Shown: positions 23,179-37,764, numbered from the stretch's first letter. The stretch: 64,000 nucleotides of DNA from Flavobacteriaceae bacterium YJPT1-3 (GCA_029866965.1 CP123444.1:785501-849500), one strand, 5' to 3'. Numbers and translations: made by a program. Notes: a model not told the origin generated them from the letters alone.

Positions 23179-24972
23179 ATGAAGACCAAACTACTTCAAC
23201 AGATCCAATCACCGGAAGACCTGCGCTTCCTATCCCTGGAAGAATTGCAGCAATTGGCTCAGGAAGCCCGGGAATTTATCATTCAAATCGTGGCAGCCAA
23301 AGAAGGGCATCTTGGAGCATCCCTGGGAGTAACGGAGCTGACGCTAGCTCTGCATTATGTGTTTCAAACCCCTCAAGATTTTTTGCTGTGGGATGTGGGT
23401 CATCAAGCTTACATTCACAAAATCCTGACCGGTAGAAGGGATCAATTTGGGACCAACCGTCAGTATGGCGGACTCAGTGGTTTTCCCAAACGCTCCGAAA
23501 GTGAATATGACCCTTTTGGCACCGGACATAGCAGTACTTCTATTTCAGCGGCCCTAGGTATGGCCATGGCTGCCCAAATGGACGGTAATCAGGACCGCCA
23601 GCATATTGCAGTTATTGGAGACGCTTCTATCGCCAGTGGAATGGCCTTCGAAGGCTTAAATCACGCAGGAGTCACTAATGCTAATCTATTAATTGTTCTC
23701 AACGATAATGCGATTGGAATAGATCCTAGCGTGGGCGCTTTAAAAAAGTACCTGACCAACGTTAAAAAGGGAACGGCACGGGAAGAGAATCTCTTTGAAG
23801 CCCTCCATTTGCATTACGAAGGCCCCATTGATGGTCACGACTTACCCCTGCTCGTAGAGACACTTCAAAAACTGAGCAAGCTGAAGGGCCCTAGATTACT
23901 CCATGTGGTGACTACCAAAGGCAAGGGGTTGGCTCAGGCTGAAGCCGATCAGGTGCGTTATCATGCCCCCGGAAAATTCAATGCGCAAACCGGTGATCTG
24001 GAAGTGCAGGAAGCCAAAGTACAGCCCCCAAAATTTCAGGATGTGTTTGGTTTAAGTTTGGTAGAATTAGCCCGCGATAATCAAAACATCGTCGGGATCA
24101 CCCCCGCCATGCCCACCGGAAGTTCGCTTAAATACATGATGGAAGCCTTTCCCGAAAGGGCTTTTGATGTGGGCATTGCAGAACAACACGCCGTCACCTT
24201 CGCGGCGGGTTTGGCCACTCAGGGGAAGATCGTCTTTTGTGCGATCTATTCCACCTTTTTACAGCGGGCCTACGATCAACTCATTCACGATGTCGGTTTG
24301 CAGGAGCTCCCGGTAATCTTCTGTATCGATCGCGCCGGATTGGTGGGCCAGGACGGCCCCACCCATCACGGTGCCTTCGATCTGGCCTATTTGAACTGCA
24401 TCCCCAACCTGAGTATAGCGGTCCCGCAGGATGAAATGGAGTTGAGGAATCTCATGTTTACGGCGAGTCTCCAGCTCAAGGGACCGTTAGCCATTCGATA
24501 TCCTCGCGGTCGGGGACAGCAGATCGACTGGCAACTTCCCTTTGAAAAAATTTCCATGCAAGGTGGCCGTCAACTGCGGAAGGGAGAAAAAATCGCCGTC
24601 CTGGGGCTAGGTCCGCTTCTGCACTCGGCTGCTCAGGCTATTGAGCGCACTCAAGTGAACGCCGGACTTTATGACTTTCGCTTCTTAAAGCCGCTGGACA
24701 CGGCATTGTTGGATCAACTTTTTGAACAGTATGATCACCTGATCACCCTGGAAGATGGATGTAAGCTAGGCGGCTTTGGACAGCAGGTTCGTGATTACGC
24801 ATTCGCGCCAAGCCTAGCGGCAGGCAGGAAGGCATATTCCGGATCGATCACCGTGCTTGGCCTACCGGATCAGTTTATTGAACACGGCACCATTGCTGAA
24901 CTTCATGAGGCTTACGGTCTCTCCGTCGATCACATTGCCGGGCATTTAAAACGCTTGTCTCGAGACCTATAG
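23179..24972 (+). CDS. dxs: 1-deoxy-D-xylulose-5-phosphate synthase
   Basis: This 597-residue thiamine-diphosphate enzyme joins pyruvate and glyceraldehyde-3-phosphate in the first step of the MEP isoprenoid pathway. Visible motifs are KEGHLGASLG, WDVGHQAYIHKILTGR, the ThDP-binding VIGDASIASGMAFEGLN, NDNAIGID, FDVGIAEQHAVTFAAG and DGPTHHGAFDLAYL. It is somewhat shorter than the E. coli enzyme (620) through a reduced mid-region linker. The 3' end overlaps the convergent dgt gene by 6 bp. A polyprenyl synthase of the same pathway lies at 11.7-12.7 kb but is not in the same operon. Confidence 0.95.
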   Translation: MKTKLLQQIQSPEDLRFLSLEELQQLAQEAREFIIQIVAAKEGHLGASLGVTELTLALHYVFQTPQDFLLWDVGHQAYIHKILTGRRDQFGTNRQYGGLSGFPKRSESEYDPFGTGHSSTSISAALGMAMAAQMDGNQDRQHIAVIGDASIASGMAFEGLNHAGVTNANLLIVLNDNAIGIDPSVGALKKYLTNVKKGTAREENLFEALHLHYEGPIDGHDLPLLVETLQKLSKLKGPRLLHVVTTKGKGLAQAEADQVRYHAPGKFNAQTGDLEVQEAKVQPPKFQDVFGLSLVELARDNQNIVGITPAMPTGSSLKYMMEAFPERAFDVGIAEQHAVTFAAGLATQGKIVFCAIYSTFLQRAYDQLIHDVGLQELPVIFCIDRAGLVGQDGPTHHGAFDLAYLNCIPNLSIAVPQDEMELRNLMFTASLQLKGPLAIRYPRGRGQQIDWQLPFEKISMQGGRQLRKGEKIAVLGLGPLLHSAAQAIERTQVNAGLYDFRFLKPLDTALLDQLFEQYDHLITLEDGCKLGGFGQQVRDYAFAPSLAAGRKAYSGSITVLGLPDQFIEHGTIAELHEAYGLSVDHIAGHLKRLSRDL

Positions 24973-26295
24973 GGAACTGCCTTTGATCTTTTGAAAGGTG
25001 CGCAGGGCATTTCCATCGGTCATGGTTGCGACTAAAGAACAGATGGCCATCAATTGCTCGTAAGTAGCAGATTCTTCTGAAGCAGCCGCAGTTGGCAGCA
25101 TTTTAGCTAAAAGTTTTGCATAATTGGAATCCGGTTGAGTCAGGACTCCGCAGCGTGCTTCCAACAAACTGGCCAATATGCCGTAGCCGGCTACCTCTTT
25201 TTCGATCACTTCCCGACTTTGATAAATGCGTTGCACACTGATCTTGATGATGTCTTCTATCTGCGCTTTATACTGACTTTTGTCCAGAAGTGCCGTATGG
25301 AACTCCCCGGCGAGCATGGCCTCCTCATGCTTCATGAATAAGTCCACCGCTTCGTCAATCAAAGTGCCAATACTCAATGCGCGCAGATACCCAACACGCT
25401 CGGCCGTAGTGCCCAATTGTTGATACTTGGACCGATCGATATTAGGCACCAATTTGATCAAATATTCCAGGGCATATTCTTCCGGAATCAAGCCTAAGTT
25501 GATCCCATCCTCAAAGTCAATGATGGTATAGCAGATGTCATCTGCAGCCTCCACCAAAAAGGTGAGCGGATGTCTGCAATAGGAAATCGTTTCGCCAGAC
25601 CGGGTGGGTTTCAGGCCTAATTCTTCAGCCACGTCCCTAAATACTTCTTTGTCGCTTTGAAAAAATCCAAATTTCTTATCGGCGATTTTTTTACTGGGCT
25701 TGTGCGGAAGCGATTCTTTGGGGTACTTCATAAAGGCCCCGAGGGTGGCATAGGACAGGCGTAATCCTCCGGGTGCTCCGGCACGGGATTCTGTAAGGAT
25801 CTTAAACCCATTGGCATTGCCTTCAAAATGGGTCAGGTCCTGATATTCTTTATCAGTCAGTGCGGTCTTAAACGAGTGGCCTGCACCATGAGAGAAAAAA
25901 TCACCAATGGCCTTCTCGCCGGAATGTCCAAAAGGCGGGTTGCCTATATCATGTGCCAGGGCTGCGGCTGCGACGATCGCCCCAAAATCATTGAACTGAT
26001 AGCCTAGTGTTTGCTGCAAATGTGGATGTTTCTTCAACAGGCGTTCGCCCACCCGTCTGCCCAGGCTTCTGCCTACCACAGAGACCTCCAAGCTGTGGGT
26101 GAGTCGGGTATGGACAAAATCGGTTTTGGAAAGCGGGATGACTTGCGTTTTATCCTGCAGGCTTCTAAAGGCCGATGAAAAAATGATACGGTCGTAATCG
26201 ACCTCAAAGCCGAGTCGGGTTTCATCCTGCTCGATGCGTAGGCGTTTTCTACGATCTCCGTAGCGTTTTAGCGATAAAAGTCGCTCCCATTCCAT
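24967..26295 (-). CDS. dgt: Deoxyguanosinetriphosphate triphosphohydrolase (dGTPase, HD domain)
   Basis: Starting at 26295 the product is MEWERLLSLKRYG..., 442 residues. Longer in-frame starts to 26370 would run into the Pho-box-like repeat of the divergent receptor gene and add a non-conserved tail. The HD-superfamily metal site is present: FVHTRLTHSLEV, ALAHDIGNPPFGHSGE, and the downstream ADDICYTIIDFEDG. The family splits dGTP (or other dNTPs) to the nucleoside and triphosphate, controlling dNTP pools. It converges on dxs with a 6-bp overlap of the stops. Confidence 0.92.
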   Translation of the reverse strand: MEWERLLSLKRYGDRRKRLRIEQDETRLGFEVDYDRIIFSSAFRSLQDKTQVIPLSKTDFVHTRLTHSLEVSVVGRSLGRRVGERLLKKHPHLQQTLGYQFNDFGAIVAAAALAHDIGNPPFGHSGEKAIGDFFSHGAGHSFKTALTDKEYQDLTHFEGNANGFKILTESRAGAPGGLRLSYATLGAFMKYPKESLPHKPSKKIADKKFGFFQSDKEVFRDVAEELGLKPTRSGETISYCRHPLTFLVEAADDICYTIIDFEDGINLGLIPEEYALEYLIKLVPNIDRSKYQQLGTTAERVGYLRALSIGTLIDEAVDLFMKHEEAMLAGEFHTALLDKSQYKAQIEDIIKISVQRIYQSREVIEKEVAGYGILASLLEARCGVLTQPDSNYAKLLAKMLPTAAASEESATYEQLMAICSLVATMTDGNALRTFQKIKGSSL

Positions 26296-26363
26296 AGGTC
26301 TGTGATTTGCCGCAAGATACAGGTTTTGCCCAATTCTCGGGGCATTCGGGGCTATGAAAGGAC

Positions 26364-26380
26364 TTAACATTAAGTTAACC
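26364..26380 (+). promoter_or_regulatory. Pho-box-like direct repeat, site A
   Basis: TTAACAT (26364-26370), spacer TAAG, TTAACC (26375-26380): hexamer starts are 11 bp apart, the period of PhoB/PhoP binding sites. It shares 15 bases, TAACATTAAGTTAAC, with site B in front of the PiT gene. Confidence 0.5.
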
Positions 26381-26407
26381 AGATGATGAAGCTTCTTTAA
26401 TACTGAG

Positions 26408-26425
26408 GTAACTCAACCTTTACAT
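26408..26425 (+). promoter_or_regulatory. Degenerate second Pho-box-like repeat by the TonB receptor promoter
   Basis: GTAACTC-AACC-TTTACAT again has an 11-bp period. It falls where the -33 element would be relative to the TTATTTTG (-7-like) at 26434-26441, as expected of an activator site that replaces the -33 contact. Confidence 0.35.
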
Positions 26426-26463
26426 GCACTCCGTTATTTTGCCCTCGATAAATAAAGTATCAC

Positions 26464-29262
26464 ATGAAATATTCTTTACTACTGCTCTGCACGCTTTTCT
26501 TCTCCCTTTCCGGGCTTGCCCAGGACACCGGGAGTATTGTAGGTGTACTCAGTGATAAAGAGGCCAATAATGCCCCTTTACCTTTTGCTACGGTTCAAAT
26601 AAAAGATACCTCTAAAGGAAGTACAACAGATTTCGATGGTTTATATGAATTAGCCAATATAGACCCGGGTACCTACACCCTGATTTTTAGCTTCGTGGGT
26701 TACGAAACCCTGGAAGTACCTGATGTGGTGGTAGAATCTGGAAAAGTGACTACCGTAAACACCGGACTCAGCGCCAGTGCTGCTGCTTTGGATGAAGTGA
26801 TCATCAAGACGACCGTTTCCAGAGAATCGGAAGTGGCCCTGCTTTTGGAACAGAAGAAAGCCGTATCCATTCAACAAAGCATTGGTGCTGACGAACTCGC
26901 CCGTAAAGGAGTGAGCGATGCCGCAGCAGCGATCGCTAAAATTTCCGGAGTATCTCAGCAACAAGGTGGGGGTAATGTCTACGTACGCGGATTGGGAGAT
27001 CGTTACCTGAATACCACCTACAATGGTCTCTCCCTCCCTTCGAACGATATCGAAAATAAGAACATTGACCTGGATCTGTTCCCGTCCGACATCATCCAAA
27101 ATGTCAATGTGAGCAAAGCCTACGCTACTAATTTTTACGGAGACTTTGCCGCAGGTAACATCAACGTAGTGTCTAAAGATTACAAAGGACGCGGCTTCCT
27201 GACTGCCGATCTGGGTACGGGATTCAATACCAATGCCTTAGGCCTCGATCAAAATTTACGTTCCGAAGGGACCGGCTATTTTGGATTCTACAACCGCTAT
27301 CACAACAATCCTTTCGCGATAATCTTATCGCACGGTCCTGATCCGGTGGATGCCGGAGCACCCATCAACGTGTCCGGTAGCCTTGCTGGAGGGACTTCTT
27401 TTGATTTCGGTGAAGACGGAGGTCGTTTAAGTGCCTTTGGGACGGTCAGCTTTGCCAATGATTTTGGCTATCGTCGAGGGCAAGCGTCTGATTATACCAC
27501 TGTATTCGAACAAGAATTCAGTGATGTGGAGTGGTACGATTACAACACCACGACCACCGCCATGGCCAATTTGATCTATCGTAATGGGGATCATCAGTTG
27601 CAATTCAACTCCTTATTTCTCAATAGCACTTCTGACGAGATCAGCAATTTTGGTATTGACGGACAAGGACGTAACCGGGATGCGATTGTCAACACCGATG
27701 GTGGATTCTTTGTAAAGAATATCCAATTTCAGCAGGATATGATTTTTGTCAATCAACTCTCCGGACTGCATCAATTTGATGAAAACTTAGAGCTGAGTTG
27801 GGGGGTTGGATTCAATACGGCCTTATCCCGCCAACCGGACCGAAAGCGATTTACCCTGGAGCAATACGATCTGGAACTGGACAATGATCCTGTTACGGCG
27901 CCGACCTTCTTTAGCAATACCGATTTTGACAATCAACGGTATTTCCAGGACATCCGAGATGAAGAGCTCAACAGTCGGGTCAATTTGGAGTACACGGCCT
28001 CCGAAACCGTAAAGTACAACTTCGGGTACAACGGACGAACTAAAGAACGAAACTTTGAGAACATTCGCTATGGATACGACCTTTTAGCGCGAAATACTCC
28101 GGTGCCCAACATCAATAATCTCAATGACATTTTCACTGTAGAGAATTTAGGGGTCATTTACGAAACTTCGGTCATTCGGCCCATTGCGCCTGAATTGGGA
28201 ATTGGAACTACTAACTTTCCCGGACTTCCAGAGAATACCTATACCGGTAATTTGGACATTCACGGGATCTATGCCAATGCCGAGTTGACTGCCGGGAAAT
28301 GGTTATTCGTACCCGGGATGCGGGTTGAATTCTTTGAACAGTCCATCAACTATGACGTGATCAACCTGGTCAACGGGATTGGAGATGTTGCTGTTTATGA
28401 TAATTTCTACCTCCCCAGCTTGAATATCAAGTACGCCCTGAATGACGATCAGAATTTGCGATTGTCCGCTTCCAAGACAGTTTCCATTCCTGAATTTAAA
28501 GAAGTGGCTCCCTTTGTCTATGAGAACGTGGTCACCCGTGTAGGAGGAAACCCCAATGTACTCTCTGAGACCTCTACTTCTGACATCTTTAATTTAGACT
28601 TGAAGTACGAGTGGTTTATGGAGGGAGGTCAACTTTTGTCTTTGGCCGCTTTCGCGAAAGAGATCAAAGACCCCATCAACAAAGTAATCGCCAATGACGC
28701 CACAGGCACCCAGCGCTATTTCCGAACCGGAGAGAAAGCCAATGTGTATGGATTGGAATTGGAAGTGCGGAAAAACCTGCTAACCGATGAAAATGGAGAC
28801 GCCAACCTGGCCTTCGGATTGAATGCAACCTACATGCATACCGAGCAGGATCTGAATAGTGAATTTGCCAATCAGGGCCCTGTTTCCATTACCACCACGA
28901 TCAACAGAACGGATGAGCTGCAAGGGGCTTCACCCTTTTTGATCAACGCAGACCTGAACTACAGTCCAACCCAATTTGAGAACTACAAACCCGTAGCCAA
29001 CCTGATCTTCTCCTACTTTGGTGATCGCATTGATGTCATTGGACCGGATCAATTGGGCAATATAGTAGAGAAAAGTGTAGCGACCCTTGACTTTGTGCTT
29101 CGCAATTCCATAGGAGAACACTGGGAGGTAAACTTCAGCGCAAAGAACCTTTTGAACCCGGATATAGAATTCCTGAGAGAGAATACGCCTGACGGAGATG
29201 TACCCATTATAAAATTCCAACGCGGGGTGAACTTTGGCCTTAGCGCGAAATATAAATTTTAA
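26464..29262 (+). CDS. TonB-dependent outer-membrane receptor with carboxypeptidase-regulatory-like N-domain
   Basis: The 932 residues include a signal peptide (LLLCTLFFSLSGLAQ). A CarboxypepD_reg-like domain follows (GSIVGVLSDKE... STTDFDGLYELANIDPGTYTLIFSFVGYE). The plug domain carries GGGNVYVRGLGDRY and LPSNDIENKNIDLDLFPSDII, and the large beta-barrel ends in a terminal Phe (LSAKYKF). It would import a ligand across the outer membrane using TonB energy. The next gene encodes a lipoprotein 32 bp downstream, the usual receptor/surface-lipoprotein arrangement, though the lipoprotein is not SusD-like. Pho-box-like repeats upstream suggest phosphate-starvation control. A near palindrome (28647-28660) encodes AFAKE. 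Confidence 0.88.
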   Translation: MKYSLLLLCTLFFSLSGLAQDTGSIVGVLSDKEANNAPLPFATVQIKDTSKGSTTDFDGLYELANIDPGTYTLIFSFVGYETLEVPDVVVESGKVTTVNTGLSASAAALDEVIIKTTVSRESEVALLLEQKKAVSIQQSIGADELARKGVSDAAAAIAKISGVSQQQGGGNVYVRGLGDRYLNTTYNGLSLPSNDIENKNIDLDLFPSDIIQNVNVSKAYATNFYGDFAAGNINVVSKDYKGRGFLTADLGTGFNTNALGLDQNLRSEGTGYFGFYNRYHNNPFAIILSHGPDPVDAGAPINVSGSLAGGTSFDFGEDGGRLSAFGTVSFANDFGYRRGQASDYTTVFEQEFSDVEWYDYNTTTTAMANLIYRNGDHQLQFNSLFLNSTSDEISNFGIDGQGRNRDAIVNTDGGFFVKNIQFQQDMIFVNQLSGLHQFDENLELSWGVGFNTALSRQPDRKRFTLEQYDLELDNDPVTAPTFFSNTDFDNQRYFQDIRDEELNSRVNLEYTASETVKYNFGYNGRTKERNFENIRYGYDLLARNTPVPNINNLNDIFTVENLGVIYETSVIRPIAPELGIGTTNFPGLPENTYTGNLDIHGIYANAELTAGKWLFVPGMRVEFFEQSINYDVINLVNGIGDVAVYDNFYLPSLNIKYALNDDQNLRLSASKTVSIPEFKEVAPFVYENVVTRVGGNPNVLSETSTSDIFNLDLKYEWFMEGGQLLSLAAFAKEIKDPINKVIANDATGTQRYFRTGEKANVYGLELEVRKNLLTDENGDANLAFGLNATYMHTEQDLNSEFANQGPVSITTTINRTDELQGASPFLINADLNYSPTQFENYKPVANLIFSYFGDRIDVIGPDQLGNIVEKSVATLDFVLRNSIGEHWEVNFSAKNLLNPDIEFLRENTPDGDVPIIKFQRGVNFGLSAKYKF

Positions 29263-29294
29263 CTAAAGACTACAATTAATCTAATTTTTTGACA

Positions 29295-30530
29295 ATGATG
29301 AAAAACAAGTATGTATTAACCGGTTTAGCAGTAGTGGCGCTTCTATTAGGCTCCTGTGCCGCAGACGACACTGCAGATATTGTGATCAACAATACCGACA
29401 ATAGTGTAACCAACATTGATAACAGCACTGACGGTGATGGTGACAATGGTGGTGATACCACAGGTCAGGATATCAACCTGGAAGGGACTTTTGCCAATGA
29501 CCTTACTTTAGAAATGGGTAATAACTATACGATCACCGGACCGGTAGTCATGGCACCCGGAACACGCCTAACCATTCCGGCTGGAATGACGATCGAGGCT
29601 GACGCTAGCGGAGGCGCCGACGTATATATCGCGATTTCTCAAGGCGCGGAAATTATCGCTCAAGGGACAGCTTCTCAGCCCATAGTGATCACTTCGAATG
29701 CTACTGCTCCTGCCGCAGGTGACTGGGGAGGTCTTATCATCTTGGGGCGCGCTCCTATCAATTCAACTTCTGGGGGTGCGACAGCCACCTCTGAAATTGG
29801 TGGTCTTCCTTACGGAGGGGCCGATGCTTCTGATTACTCGGGGGTTATTCAATACGTACGCTTAGAGTATACCGGTGGAAAAGCAGACGGTCAGTCTGAA
29901 AACAACGGATTCTCCTTCTACGGCGTTGGTAATGCAACTGTAGTCGATCACATTCAAGCTTACATAGGCGCTGACGATGGTGTGGAATTCTTTGGCGGTA
30001 CCGTTAATGCACGTTTTGTGTCGGTAATTGGATCACAAGATGACTCTATTGACTGGACCGAAGGTTATACGGGAACCCTTACCGATGTCTATGTAGAGCA
30101 TCTGGGATCTGCAGAATTCGATAAAGGAATTGAAGCCGATGGATTCAATACCGATATTGGAAACAACTCTGATCCTTTGTATTTCTCCTTTCCAACGATC
30201 AACAATCTGACCATCATTGGAACCGGTTCTACCAATGGCAACGAAGCCATTCGCCTTCGCGCCGGTACCCGAGTGGAAATGAACAATGTACTTCTTCAAG
30301 GTTTTGATGAAGGTATCGACATGGACGGTGATATGGGGAATAGCCCTACCGGACAAGGCGTTGTCGATGGTGAAACCCAAGTGAACGACATTACCTTTAC
30401 AGACGTAATAGTACGTCTTAAGAATGACACCGGATTCACCTTTGGTGAAGCCGAACTATTCACCGGGATCGGTAATGGAACAGGAACAGATTATGCGACT
30501 TGGGGCGCGGGCTGGACGGCTTCTAACTAA
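29295..30530 (+). CDS. Beta-helix-like lipoprotein partnered with the TonB receptor
   Basis: The 411-residue product has a lipoprotein signal (VALLLGSC) followed by a low-complexity Asp/Asn/Gly linker (about 25-60). The rest alternates short hydrophobic strands and Gly/Asn/Asp turns (LTLEMGNNYTITGPVVMAPG, LTIPAGMTIEADASGG, VVIT-type, DWGGLIILGRAPIN). This pattern resembles a right-handed parallel beta-helix. DDGVEFFGG and QDDSIDW give acidic pairs that may bind metal. ATG at 29295 is preferred over an in-frame TTG at 29289. Co-transcription with the receptor is likely. The ligand is unknown, and the possible Pho control makes a phosphorus-containing or calcium-bound substrate an attractive guess only. 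Confidence 0.8.
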   Translation: MMKNKYVLTGLAVVALLLGSCAADDTADIVINNTDNSVTNIDNSTDGDGDNGGDTTGQDINLEGTFANDLTLEMGNNYTITGPVVMAPGTRLTIPAGMTIEADASGGADVYIAISQGAEIIAQGTASQPIVITSNATAPAAGDWGGLIILGRAPINSTSGGATATSEIGGLPYGGADASDYSGVIQYVRLEYTGGKADGQSENNGFSFYGVGNATVVDHIQAYIGADDGVEFFGGTVNARFVSVIGSQDDSIDWTEGYTGTLTDVYVEHLGSAEFDKGIEADGFNTDIGNNSDPLYFSFPTINNLTIIGTGSTNGNEAIRLRAGTRVEMNNVLLQGFDEGIDMDGDMGNSPTGQGVVDGETQVNDITFTDVIVRLKNDTGFTFGEAELFTGIGNGTGTDYATWGAGWTASN

Positions 30531-30550
30531 TTGAATAATTAGCCTTAATG

Positions 30551-30582
30551 AAAAAAGCCCTTGCATGTGCAAGGGCTTTTAT
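30551..30582. terminator. Bidirectional terminator
   Basis: AAAAGCCCTTGCA-TG-TGCAAGGGCTTTT is a near-perfect palindrome flanked by A and T runs, between the convergent lipoprotein and MORN-type genes. Confidence 0.92.
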
Positions 30583-30601
30583 TTTTTTATAGACATTGGC
30601 G

Positions 30602-30964
30602 TTAATCAATACTCACGATACGCTGATTGACGGTCTCATAGGTTGTGACCTCAGCAATTCTGGAATCCTGATAATCGACTTCCCGTAAGATATTCCCGGT
30701 CCAAAAGAACCACTTGCCAACTTTTTCTCCATTATCGTATTGAGCGACGGCTGTTTTTACACCCTCTCGATCAAAACTGGTCCATTGACCTTGTAATTTT
30801 CCTTTTTTGGTGTAGTATCCCGTCTGACTCACAAGTCCATTATCATGATATAAGGTGGCCTTGATCAGATCCCCTTCCAAAACATAGTCATTCTTTACGG
30901 TATCCTGTGCATAAACGCCCATTCCTAGGAGCGCAACTGCAATAATCATCATGTATTTTTTCAT
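30602..30964 (-). CDS. Small secreted MORN/YwqK-like repeat protein
   Basis: The 120 residues begin with a signal peptide (MMIIAVALLGMGVYAQ). Three repeats of the MORN-like type follow: ATLYHDNGLVSQTGYYTKKG, LQGQWTSFDREGVKTAVAQY and KVGKWFFWTGNILREVDYQ, as in proteins annotated YwqK-family antitoxins. A toxin partner is not seen, so that name should not be taken literally. It is divergent from the PiT phosphate transporter gene and shares its upstream region, including Pho-box-like site B. Co-regulation with phosphate uptake is possible. Function unknown. Confidence 0.8.
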   Translation of the reverse strand: MKKYMMIIAVALLGMGVYAQDTVKNDYVLEGDLIKATLYHDNGLVSQTGYYTKKGKLQGQWTSFDREGVKTAVAQYDNGEKVGKWFFWTGNILREVDYQDSRIAEVTTYETVNQRIVSID

Positions 30965-30994
30965 AATATGGAGCTTTTGTTAATACTAACGTTA

Positions 30995-31002
30995 CAAAGA
31001 TA
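30995..31002 (-). promoter_or_regulatory. -7 element of the MORN-type gene (TATCTTTG)
   Basis: Reverse-strand TATCTTTG, 30 bp upstream of the ATG at 30964. Pho-box-like site B starts 31 bp further upstream. Confidence 0.6.
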
Positions 31003-31032
31003 GCACTTATTTTACATTCAAGCAATATTTAG

Positions 31033-31050
31033 GTAACATTAAGTTAACAT
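31033..31050. promoter_or_regulatory. Pho-box-like direct repeat, site B
   Basis: GTAACAT-TAAG-TTAACAT with an 11-bp period. It is nearly identical to site A, 4.7 kb away, and lies in the divergent region between the MORN-type gene and the PiT gene. Confidence 0.5.
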
Positions 31051-31137
31051 TGAATGCTTTATACACTTGTTTTCAGAGGTTTACGTCTGTTATTATTCTA
31101 AATAAGGTCGTTCTTCGCTTTATTTTCTGAGGATTAC

Positions 31138-31151
31138 GCTTTCGCGAAAGC
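31138..31151. repeat. Exact iterated palindrome in the pit upstream region
   Basis: GCTTTCGCGAAAGC in non-coding DNA between Pho-box-like sites B and C. Confidence 0.9.
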
Positions 31152-31167
31152 TCCTACTCACCGTACT

Positions 31168-31213
31168 CATAACCTTAACTTAACATCCACATTTAAAATA
31201 AAGCACAACTTTG
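31168..31213 (+). promoter_or_regulatory. PiT gene promoter with Pho-box-like site C
   Basis: CATAACC-TTAA-CTTAACA (31168-31185, 11-bp period) lies just where the -33 contact would be for the -7-like CAACTTTG at 31206-31213. The ATG follows at 31236. The arrangement matches an activator-dependent phosphate promoter; the regulator gene itself is not in this window. Confidence 0.45.
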
Positions 31214-31235: not shown

Positions 31236-33479
31236 ATGGATAATATCTACATCATCATGCTTGTCGCTTTGGCCATCTTAGCCGTTGCTGATTTAGTCGT
31301 GGGTGTCAGTAATGACGCAGTCAATTTCCTCAATTCAGCCATTGGTTCTAAAGCGGTCACCTTTAAAACCCTGATGATCGTGGCCAGCGTAGGTATTGCG
31401 TTTGGCGCCTTATCCAGTAGTGGGATGATGGAAGTAGCGCGTAAAGGCATTTTTGTGCCTGGAGAATTCTATTTCAATGAAATTATGGTCATTTTTATGG
31501 CCGTGATGGTCACGGACATCCTCTTACTTGATTTTTTCAATACCCTGGGCCTCCCTACTTCGACCACCGTATCCATTGTCTTTGAACTGCTGGGTGCGGC
31601 CGTGTGTATGGCCCTGATCAAAATAGCCGATAATGACGATACCTTCCTGCAGTTAGGGAAGTACATCAATAACGATAAGGCGATTGAAATCATTTTGGGC
31701 ATCCTGCTTTCGGTAGCCATTGCCTTTACCGTAGGAGCGGTCATTCAGTTTTTCACGCGCCTGCTGCTCACTTTCAATTTTGAAGAAAAACCCCAGTGGA
31801 TGGCTGCGGTCTTTGGCGGACTGGCCATCGCCTCCATTGGATACTTTATCATCATTAAGGGCCTTAAAGGAACCAGCTTTAGCTCGGGCAGCTTTTTCGA
31901 ATGGGCCAATACGCATACCTGGTCCTTTATCGGGGCAAGTTTTGTGGTATGGTCGATTATCGCTTACCTCTTTGGAGCACTCTTCAAGGTGAATGTTTAT
32001 AAAATGATCATCGTGCTGGGCACATTCGCTCTGGCCATGGCCTTTGCCGGCAATGACCTGGTGAATTTTATTGGGGTGCCTATTGCGGCGTATCAGGCCT
32101 ATGACTTCTGGCTGGCCAGCGGCATCCCGGCGGAGGAGTTTACCATGGAAATCTTAGCGGCTAAAGTGGCCACCCCAGAACTTTTACTACTGATCGCCGG
32201 AGTCGTCATGGTGCTTACCCTATGGTTCTCTAAGAAAGCACGACGGGTCGTTAAAACCTCAGTTGATCTGGCTCGCCAGGATGAAGGAACCGAACGCTTC
32301 GCTCCCAATTCGCTATCTCGCGGGCTCGTTCGTGCGTTTATGGGGCTCAATAAAGGCTTTTACGCCATACTTCCGCAAAGCGGTAAAAACTTCATCGCTT
32401 CCCGCTTTGTCAAGGCCCGTCCAAAAAATAAATTACTGGCGATCGACATGCCCGCTTTTGATATGGTGCGGGCTGCAGTAAATCTCATGGTGGCTAGTGT
32501 ACTGATCTCCTTAGCGACCTCTATGAAATTACCCCTATCCACCACCTATGTCACCTTTATGGTGACCATGGGTACTTCTCTGGCTGATCGGGCCTGGGGG
32601 AGCGAAAGTGCGGTGTATCGTGTGGCTGGAGTACTCAACGTCATTGGAGGTTGGTTCTTTACGGCTATCAGTGCCTTTGTTGCGGCCGCGGTCATGGCCT
32701 TTTTACTCTATCACGGTGGATTGATCGCCTTGTTTGCCCTTTTTGCATTGGCTGTTTTCCTTTTGGTGCGTAACTACATCAATCATAAAAAGCGGGAAAA
32801 AGTAGAAGAAGAGGAAGGCCGACTGCTGCGAGCGGTGAGTTCTTCTGTACAAGGCATCATTAACGAGAGTACCTCCAATGTGGCCTCGGTATTTAAGCGC
32901 GGAAGCGGAGTGTACAGCAGCACGATTAACGGCTTGGCTCGTGTGGATCTTTCTACGCTGAAAAAGAGCAAGAAGGGTATCAGCAAACTGAATAAGGAGG
33001 TAGAAGAACTACGGAATAACCTTTACTATTTCATTAAGAACCTGGACGAATCCCACGTGGAGGCCAGTCGATTCTATATTGATGTACTGGGTTATTTACA
33101 AGATGTCACCCAATCGATAGAGTACATCAGTACGTCCAGCTACAATCACATCAACAACAATCACAAAGGACTGACCTTCATCCAGATCAAAGATCTGAAA
33201 GAAGTGGAGCAATTGATCAACAAACTGTTTGAAGATATCAAAGAGGTCTTTAAGGCTAAAGATTTTGAACGTTTGGTACCCATCATTAATGATAAGAGTT
33301 CGCTAGAGTCGCGTATTTCCAAAAAGATCGAAAGTCAGGTGGAGCGCACACGCAATACCGAATCCAGTCCAAAGAATACCATGCTCTACATCAGTCTGCT
33401 TCAGGAATCCAAAGACATGGTTTCAGCGACCATGAGTCTCTTAGAACATTACTACGTAGAATATAAAACGCATCTGTAG
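31236..33479 (+). CDS. PiT-family inorganic phosphate transporter with C-terminal PhoU-like domain
   Basis: The 747-residue protein has about twelve hydrophobic helices with both PiT signatures: VGVSNDAVNFLNSAIGSKA near residue 25 and FAGNDLVNFIGVPIAA near residue 270. Residues about 520-747 are a charged, helical, soluble extension (LNKEVEELRNNLYYFIKN, DLKEVEQLINKLFEDIKE) resembling PhoU/DUF47 helix bundles, which often sit in a separate gene beside PiT. It would take up phosphate with H+ or Na+ at the inner membrane, and the fused domain may gate it. Three Pho-box-like repeats are in the region, one at its promoter. Confidence 0.92.
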   Translation: MDNIYIIMLVALAILAVADLVVGVSNDAVNFLNSAIGSKAVTFKTLMIVASVGIAFGALSSSGMMEVARKGIFVPGEFYFNEIMVIFMAVMVTDILLLDFFNTLGLPTSTTVSIVFELLGAAVCMALIKIADNDDTFLQLGKYINNDKAIEIILGILLSVAIAFTVGAVIQFFTRLLLTFNFEEKPQWMAAVFGGLAIASIGYFIIIKGLKGTSFSSGSFFEWANTHTWSFIGASFVVWSIIAYLFGALFKVNVYKMIIVLGTFALAMAFAGNDLVNFIGVPIAAYQAYDFWLASGIPAEEFTMEILAAKVATPELLLLIAGVVMVLTLWFSKKARRVVKTSVDLARQDEGTERFAPNSLSRGLVRAFMGLNKGFYAILPQSGKNFIASRFVKARPKNKLLAIDMPAFDMVRAAVNLMVASVLISLATSMKLPLSTTYVTFMVTMGTSLADRAWGSESAVYRVAGVLNVIGGWFFTAISAFVAAAVMAFLLYHGGLIALFALFALAVFLLVRNYINHKKREKVEEEEGRLLRAVSSSVQGIINESTSNVASVFKRGSGVYSSTINGLARVDLSTLKKSKKGISKLNKEVEELRNNLYYFIKNLDESHVEASRFYIDVLGYLQDVTQSIEYISTSSYNHINNNHKGLTFIQIKDLKEVEQLINKLFEDIKEVFKAKDFERLVPIINDKSSLESRISKKIESQVERTRNTESSPKNTMLYISLLQESKDMVSATMSLLEHYYVEYKTHL

Positions 33480-37566: not shown

Positions 37567-37764
37567 TGTTGATTTCTATATTTTTGGTTTTCAATGGGTT
37601 AAGACTATTAAAAATTTTCCGAAAATTTCAGAAAATAAGCGTCTAAAATAGCGGTCATCAAGTCTGAATATGGGGGTTCCGCCCGATTTTTCATAACGTT
37701 TTGATAACATTGCCGCAATCAAAAAATGAGCGCTCAAAACGGATGATAATAAGATTTTTCGCAC

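Follow-up and report, generated by a model that had tools for sequence, protein, structure and literature searches.

The window, a 64,000-nucleotide stretch of the genome of Flavobacteriaceae bacterium YJPT1-3, contains genes for a TonB-dependent receptor and an outer-membrane lipoprotein, followed by a small gene on the opposite strand and a PiT-family phosphate transporter (Table 1). Receptor orthologs in other genera are 51-71% identical, and the lipoprotein accompanies the receptor in 39 of the 40 loci that were retrieved. The lipoprotein had no match in Pfam and no sequence match in the PDB; a Foldseek search with its model returned weak matches to pectate-lyase-type beta-helices. The position and orientation of the small MORN-variant gene are the same in 31 relatives, and PiT is present in 147 of 150 Flavobacteriaceae genera. 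The order that recurs across genera is dgt - receptor - lipoprotein - small gene - (OprP) - PiT - nrdA; OprP precedes PiT in many relatives, and none was found in the present genome. Some relatives encode two or three tandem lipoprotein copies joined in one protein of about 740 to 1070 aa (for example, G135:C5:32385-35495 and G144:C1:2695545-2697719). The lipoprotein and small genes converge on a hairpin followed by a T-run (window 30555-30590), likely a terminator.

Table 1. Genes, boxes, and promoter elements of the locus, with positions counted from the first nucleotide of the window.
Feature	Position	Strand	Description
Site A	26364..26379	+	TTAACATTAAGTTAAC; half-sites at 26365 and 26376; distal box of the TonB-receptor promoter
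Receptor-proximal box	26397..26424	+	TAAT at 26398, TAAC at 26409, TTAC at 26420, 11 bp apart
-7 element, receptor gene	26434..26441	+	TTATTTTG, of TANNTTTG type; distance to box fixed across genera
TonB-dependent receptor	26464..29262	+	932 aa; CarboxypepD_reg-like domain, plug, and barrel; Pfam PF00593, PF13715, PF07715
Outer-membrane lipoprotein, parallel beta-helix fold	29298..30530	+	410 aa; AlphaFold pLDDT 84.6
Small secreted MORN-variant protein	30602..30964	-	120 aa; divergent from PiT
-7 element, small gene	30995..31002	-	TATCTTTG; conserved in relatives
Site B	31012..31049	-	Array TGTTA-N6-TGTTA-(degenerate)-TGTAA, four 11-bp positions, before the small gene (30602-30964)
Site C	31169..31185	+	Box ATAACCTTAACTTAACA in the PiT promoter; half-sites at 31170 and 31181
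-7 element, PiT gene	31206..31213	+	CAACTTTG; TTTG at 31210
PiT-family inorganic phosphate transporter	31236..33479	+	747 aa; Pfam PHO4 PF01384, 9.7e-29
C-terminal PhoU-fold domain of PiT	32748..33476	+	Residues 505-747; AlphaFold pLDDT 87.7

A preliminary description of this DNA had placed three direct repeats with an 11-bp period, A, B, and C, around these genes, and all three lie where it put them; each is a pair of TAAC half-sites with an 11-bp period (core repeats of B, 31033-31048, GTAACATTAAGTTAAC, and of C, 31169-31184, ATAACCTTAACTTAAC). The sequence that it reported A and B to share is likewise real, a common 15-mer, TAACATTAAGTTAAC, and its degenerate site by the receptor exists as three half-sites in 11-bp steps, which relatives keep as TTTAAC-N5-TTAAC-N6-TTTACA. 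Exactly three periods (3 x 11 = 33 bp) separate this receptor-proximal box from site A, which lies upstream of it. The further proposal that site C and the proximal site occupy the -33 position also holds, as the second TAAC precedes the TTTG of the -7 element by 29 bp at both (31181 to 31210 and 26409 to 26438); for site A, this distance is exactly 62 bp. Because site C, the proximal site, and site A stand at exactly 29, 29, and 62 bp, the array covers the -33 region at a fixed helical phase, the arrangement expected of an activator that contacts RNA polymerase. The longest reading frame of dgt, a dGTP triphosphohydrolase gene (window 24967-26370, minus strand), begins within site A. As the alignment to most relatives sets in only at about residue 15-26, the gene probably starts further in, which would leave site A intergenic.

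Site B differs in orientation. As a -33 site of PiT it was rejected, being out of register with the PiT promoter; it is a reverse array belonging to the divergent small gene, and this placement is conserved in 25 of 31 loci. In 20 relatives, the second GTTA of such an array lies exactly 35 bp above TA..TTTG. Counted from TTTG, the half-sites of B share their register with the forward arrays, so arrays of either orientation appear to be in use at identical positions.

Loci of other genera were retrieved via the lipoprotein and PiT proteins, and the regions upstream of their genes were analysed. TAAC-N7-TAAC, in one orientation, precedes the receptor gene in 34 of 39 cases and PiT in 26 of 27, compared with a mean of about 0.45 sequences and a maximum of 3 in shuffled controls. 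Among spacings from 7 to 19, those other than period 11 are near the shuffled mean; the one exception is period 19, present in 6 sequences at the receptor. Among receptor promoters of the named genomes, 58 of 79 have the pair; TAAC pairs 19 bp apart are seen in 22 of the 79, mainly those with a divergent phoB, where they probably reflect the overlap of two arrays. Overall, 95 of 192 promoters of target genes (dgt included) carry the TAAC pair versus 9 of 594 other promoters at the same loci. The geometry is fixed: the second TAAC precedes TTTG by 29 bp in all 23 PiT promoters in which this could be measured, and at the receptor by either 29 bp (18 promoters) or 62 bp, that is, 29+33 (14 promoters). 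In OprP promoters of relatives, read by eye, the pair lies one period nearer, 18 bp from TTTG. Beyond the TAAC pair, a weaker third half-site is present 11 bp further downstream.

Pattern searches over the 3.16-Mb genome gave a different picture for the motif as originally written. The preliminary description expected TTAAC-N6-TTAAC to mark Pho genes and to be rarer at random intergenic sites. In the whole genome, there are 15 perfect matches and 229 with at most one mismatch, where composition predicts 7.6 and 230, and the 64-kb window holds 40 matches at up to two mismatches versus 54 in shuffles. We therefore rejected this matrix as a genome-wide criterion; its count is at background, although the motif is conserved far beyond chance across genomes. 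It is this conservation that supports the boxes, the counts in a single genome being unremarkable. The family consensus derived from other genera, TAACATTNAGNTAACA, performs better: at 0-1 mismatches it occurs in the whole genome only at site B (the sole match without mismatch), site A (one mismatch), and the phoB promoter. About 1.35 matches are expected by chance at this threshold, so the weight of these matches lies in their locations and not in their number. Site C is the only exact TAAC-N7-TAAC-N25-TTTG in the genome. With two mismatches, the genome-wide count of TAACATTNAGNTAACA equals that of a reversed-pattern control, and we claim no further members from this class. One such consensus-like repeat, TAACGTTTTGATAACA, lies in an intergenic part of the window (37694-37709, plus strand), 274 bp before nrdB and oriented opposite to that gene; with its two mismatches it may be due to chance. 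The sequences TTAACAAATATTTAAC and TTAACAAATAATTAAC occur at several places in the genome, partly as close pairs (G000:C1:2241214, 2365309, 2514926, and 2599370), and resemble a dispersed repeat more than PhoB boxes.

The best PhoB-like gene in the genome (G000:C1:1395404-1396084) encodes an OmpR-family regulator and is directly followed by a gene for a PhoR-like kinase. Its product is the best of 24 matches in the genome to the equivalog model TIGR02154, at 221 bits, below the cut-off of 296.2; the name PhoB accordingly rests on context. This cut-off is passed by only 2 of 14 control genomes. Within the phoB promoter lies GTTACCTAAATGTTA, which is TAACATTTAGGTAAC in reverse complement, and a box in this orientation precedes phoB in 25 of 29 other genomes (26 of 30 with the present one); from this box, phoBR is predicted to be autoregulated through the same type of site. 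phoBR is also physically linked to other targets. In 24 named loci, phoB is divergent from the receptor/lipoprotein pair (genera with this arrangement opposite the receptor include Kordia, Flagellimonas/Allomuricauda, Flavobacterium, Chryseobacterium, and Empedobacter, and in the last two the PhoB adjoining the receptor is 58-60% identical), and in 7 named loci, mostly of Aquimarina, PiT is directly before phoB.

An exact search of ten relatives for the box with its 29-bp spacing gave recurrent matches at three genes only: the receptor gene, PiT, and moxR, an AAA_3 ATPase gene that has it in 8 of the 10; in the present genome, the promoters of the same three genes match the composite pattern at 0-1 mismatches. 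The moxR boxes are forward-oriented and, by analogy with the activation of moxR in Riemerella, forward orientation would be the activating one. The targets include genes of phosphate acquisition, namely PiT, the phosphate porin Porin_O_P in relatives, and the receptor/lipoprotein pair, whose counterparts are induced by phosphate (Pi) depletion (PMC8115612). The expectation that the motif would mark Pho genes stands for phoB, through TAACATTNAGNTAACA, but not for phoA, which we rejected as a member for want of a proper box. The gene for a PhoA-type alkaline phosphatase lipoprotein (G000:C1:1591541-1592521) has a degenerate pair, TTAAA-N6-TTGAC, 18 bp above TTTA.

The boxes, their conservation, their fixed geometry, the set of genes they precede, and the linkage of these genes to phoBR are all observed in the genomes. 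Combined with the binding, activation, and phosphate control published for relatives, they lead us to consider it highly probable that the repeats A, B, and C serve as PhoB boxes in a small phosphate regulon of the Flavobacteriaceae, with a TANNTTTG promoter layout. The earlier suggestion of PhoB/PhoP-type boxes that define a phosphate regulon is therefore supported, both by the box before phoB and by the linkage of phoBR to its targets in 31 named loci; very probably, these are the DNA sites of the Flavobacteriaceae response to phosphate shortage. Phosphorylated PhoB would bind head-to-tail to TAACA half-sites every 11 bp and, with its array overlapping the -33 region of TANNTTTG promoters, would recruit RNA polymerase. 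Its predicted targets are the receptor-lipoprotein operon (site A and the proximal box), PiT (site C), the small gene (site B, reverse), phoBR, and the moxR/bat operon. Under low phosphate, outer-membrane capture by the receptor and beta-helix lipoprotein and inner-membrane uptake by PiT would then rise together.

The alternative that survives best, though we consider it improbable, is that a different OmpR-family regulator, responding to envelope or redox stress, binds the boxes and that the link to phosphate is incidental. Half-sites of this kind are common to OmpR-family regulators and moxR is a conserved target here too; the targets confirmed for Riemerella PhoP, whose motif resembles that of ArcA, comprise bat, cytochromes, and GLPGLI proteins (PMC9603813). 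Against this, a box lies in the phoB promoter itself in those 26 of 30 genomes, the 31 loci have phoBR adjoining target genes, and the targets include an inner-membrane phosphate transporter and, in relatives, the Porin_O_P porin. Still less credible is that the repeats serve strong promoters simply as a -33 element, in the form of an A+T-rich core with no dedicated regulator. They do lie over the -33 region with a constant distance to -7, and TTAAC-N6-TTAAC is at background frequency in the genome, but such a pair is found in only 9 of 594 other promoters of the same loci, periods other than exactly 11 are at background, and neither distal copies 33 bp further up nor reverse-oriented arrays can be -33 elements. 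That the repeats arose by chance in the present genome, as its matching counts could suggest, is contradicted already by their position-exact conservation across dozens of genera, and we give it almost no weight.

Assignment of the boxes to a PhoB regulon agrees with experimental work in two relatives. In Flavobacterium johnsoniae, Fjoh_0545 (receptor) and Fjoh_0546 (beta-helix lipoprotein), beside PhoBR, rise by 8-10 log2 on Pi depletion, whereas OprP of the PhoBR operon is not Pi-induced (PMC8115612). This PhoBR operon, or PUSIV cluster, has the same receptor and beta-helix lipoprotein pair, the genes being matched by context; the lipoprotein is about 40% identical in other Flavobacterium. 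The pair is beside phoBR there, whereas in the present genome it is away from phoBR and adjoins PiT, and the F. johnsoniae study does not describe a binding site (PMC8115612). For the PhoP (PhoPR) regulon of Riemerella anatipestifer, the published results are TTTAACA as the most conserved bases of the motif, EMSA binding of PhoP to its own promoter and to moxR, and lower moxR, batA, and batC in a phoP mutant, with direct activation of moxR/batA/batC (PMC9603813). Motif, autoregulation, and the moxR target are as proposed here, with regulators matched by context. The text consulted of that paper, on a member of the family Weeksellaceae, describes a single ArcA-like motif without an 11-bp array or fixed -7 spacing, and stresses virulence and oxygen rather than phosphate uptake (PMC9603813). 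Riemerella PhoP binds 583 places, mostly at non-phosphate genes, and pstS is raised in the mutant (PMC5399024). Because Riemerella targets are mostly unrelated to phosphate, pstS is up in the mutant, and F. johnsoniae OprP is not Pi-induced, the regulator may serve more than phosphate.

More distant systems share the architecture. The E. coli PHO box likewise consists of head-to-tail 11-nt repeats over a promoter upstream element, with autoregulated phoBR and control of phosphate uptake (PMC4415409). The half-site differs, being TAACA/TGTTA here and CTGTCAT in E. coli, a sequence that the present boxes do not match. Unlike in E. coli, the arrays here are in both orientations, a PiT with a PhoU-like tail replaces Pst plus PhoU, the sigma element is TANNTTTG, and the members include a TonB receptor, a beta-helix lipoprotein, and moxR. 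The PhoP box of Bacillus subtilis is made of TTAACA-type repeats, and thus has nearly the same half-site and the same 11-bp period; the promoters here are of the Bacteroidota kind and the gene set is another, and the two regulators are compared at the level of the OmpR family. The Flavobacteriaceae are central to the cycling of phosphorus in sea and soil, and in a literature search we found no PHO box defined for them. With TAACATTNAGNTAACA and its fixed distance to TANNTTTG, the regulon becomes readable from genomes, and an uncharacterised receptor/beta-helix lipoprotein pair is tied to phosphate.

The C-terminal domain of PiT could have a part in sensing. In a Foldseek search with residues 505-747, the top matches were all PhoU (4q25, TM 0.71/0.81), and in genome G099, PF01895 scores inside the PiT reading frame. 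A search of the present genome for PhoU (PF01895) found none; a Pst/PhoU operon was discarded as a candidate on this ground and, because there is no PhoU gene, the Pst system is very probably absent. PF01895 is found in only 12 of 150 genera. In Staphylococcus aureus, the phosphate two-component system is under the control of PhoU-like proteins that partner PitA and NptA (PMC13170248). Given the PhoU fold on PiT, the scarcity of PhoU, and these partners, it is plausible that the PiT tail informs PhoR here. In the PitR/NptA system, PhoU-like regulators are likewise paired with a non-Pst transporter to control the two-component system, but PitR is a protein of its own and NptA a Na/Pi transporter, while in the present case PiT and the PhoU-like domain form one fusion protein. 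The tail would report phosphate to PhoR in place of Pst and PhoU, and the fusion offers a testable, Pst-independent route of sensing. Extending this to most Flavobacteriaceae is more tentative, and we put it somewhat below an even chance: sensing would be free of Pst and PhoU, with the PhoU-fold tail of PiT signaling the state of transport to PhoR, the boxes would close the loop on PiT, phoBR, and the receptor/lipoprotein pair, and arrays would work in either orientation in the same 11-bp register. Where separate PhoU genes do occur in the family, they are mostly directly upstream of PiT (for example, G032:C1:1371422 and G130:C5:133707).
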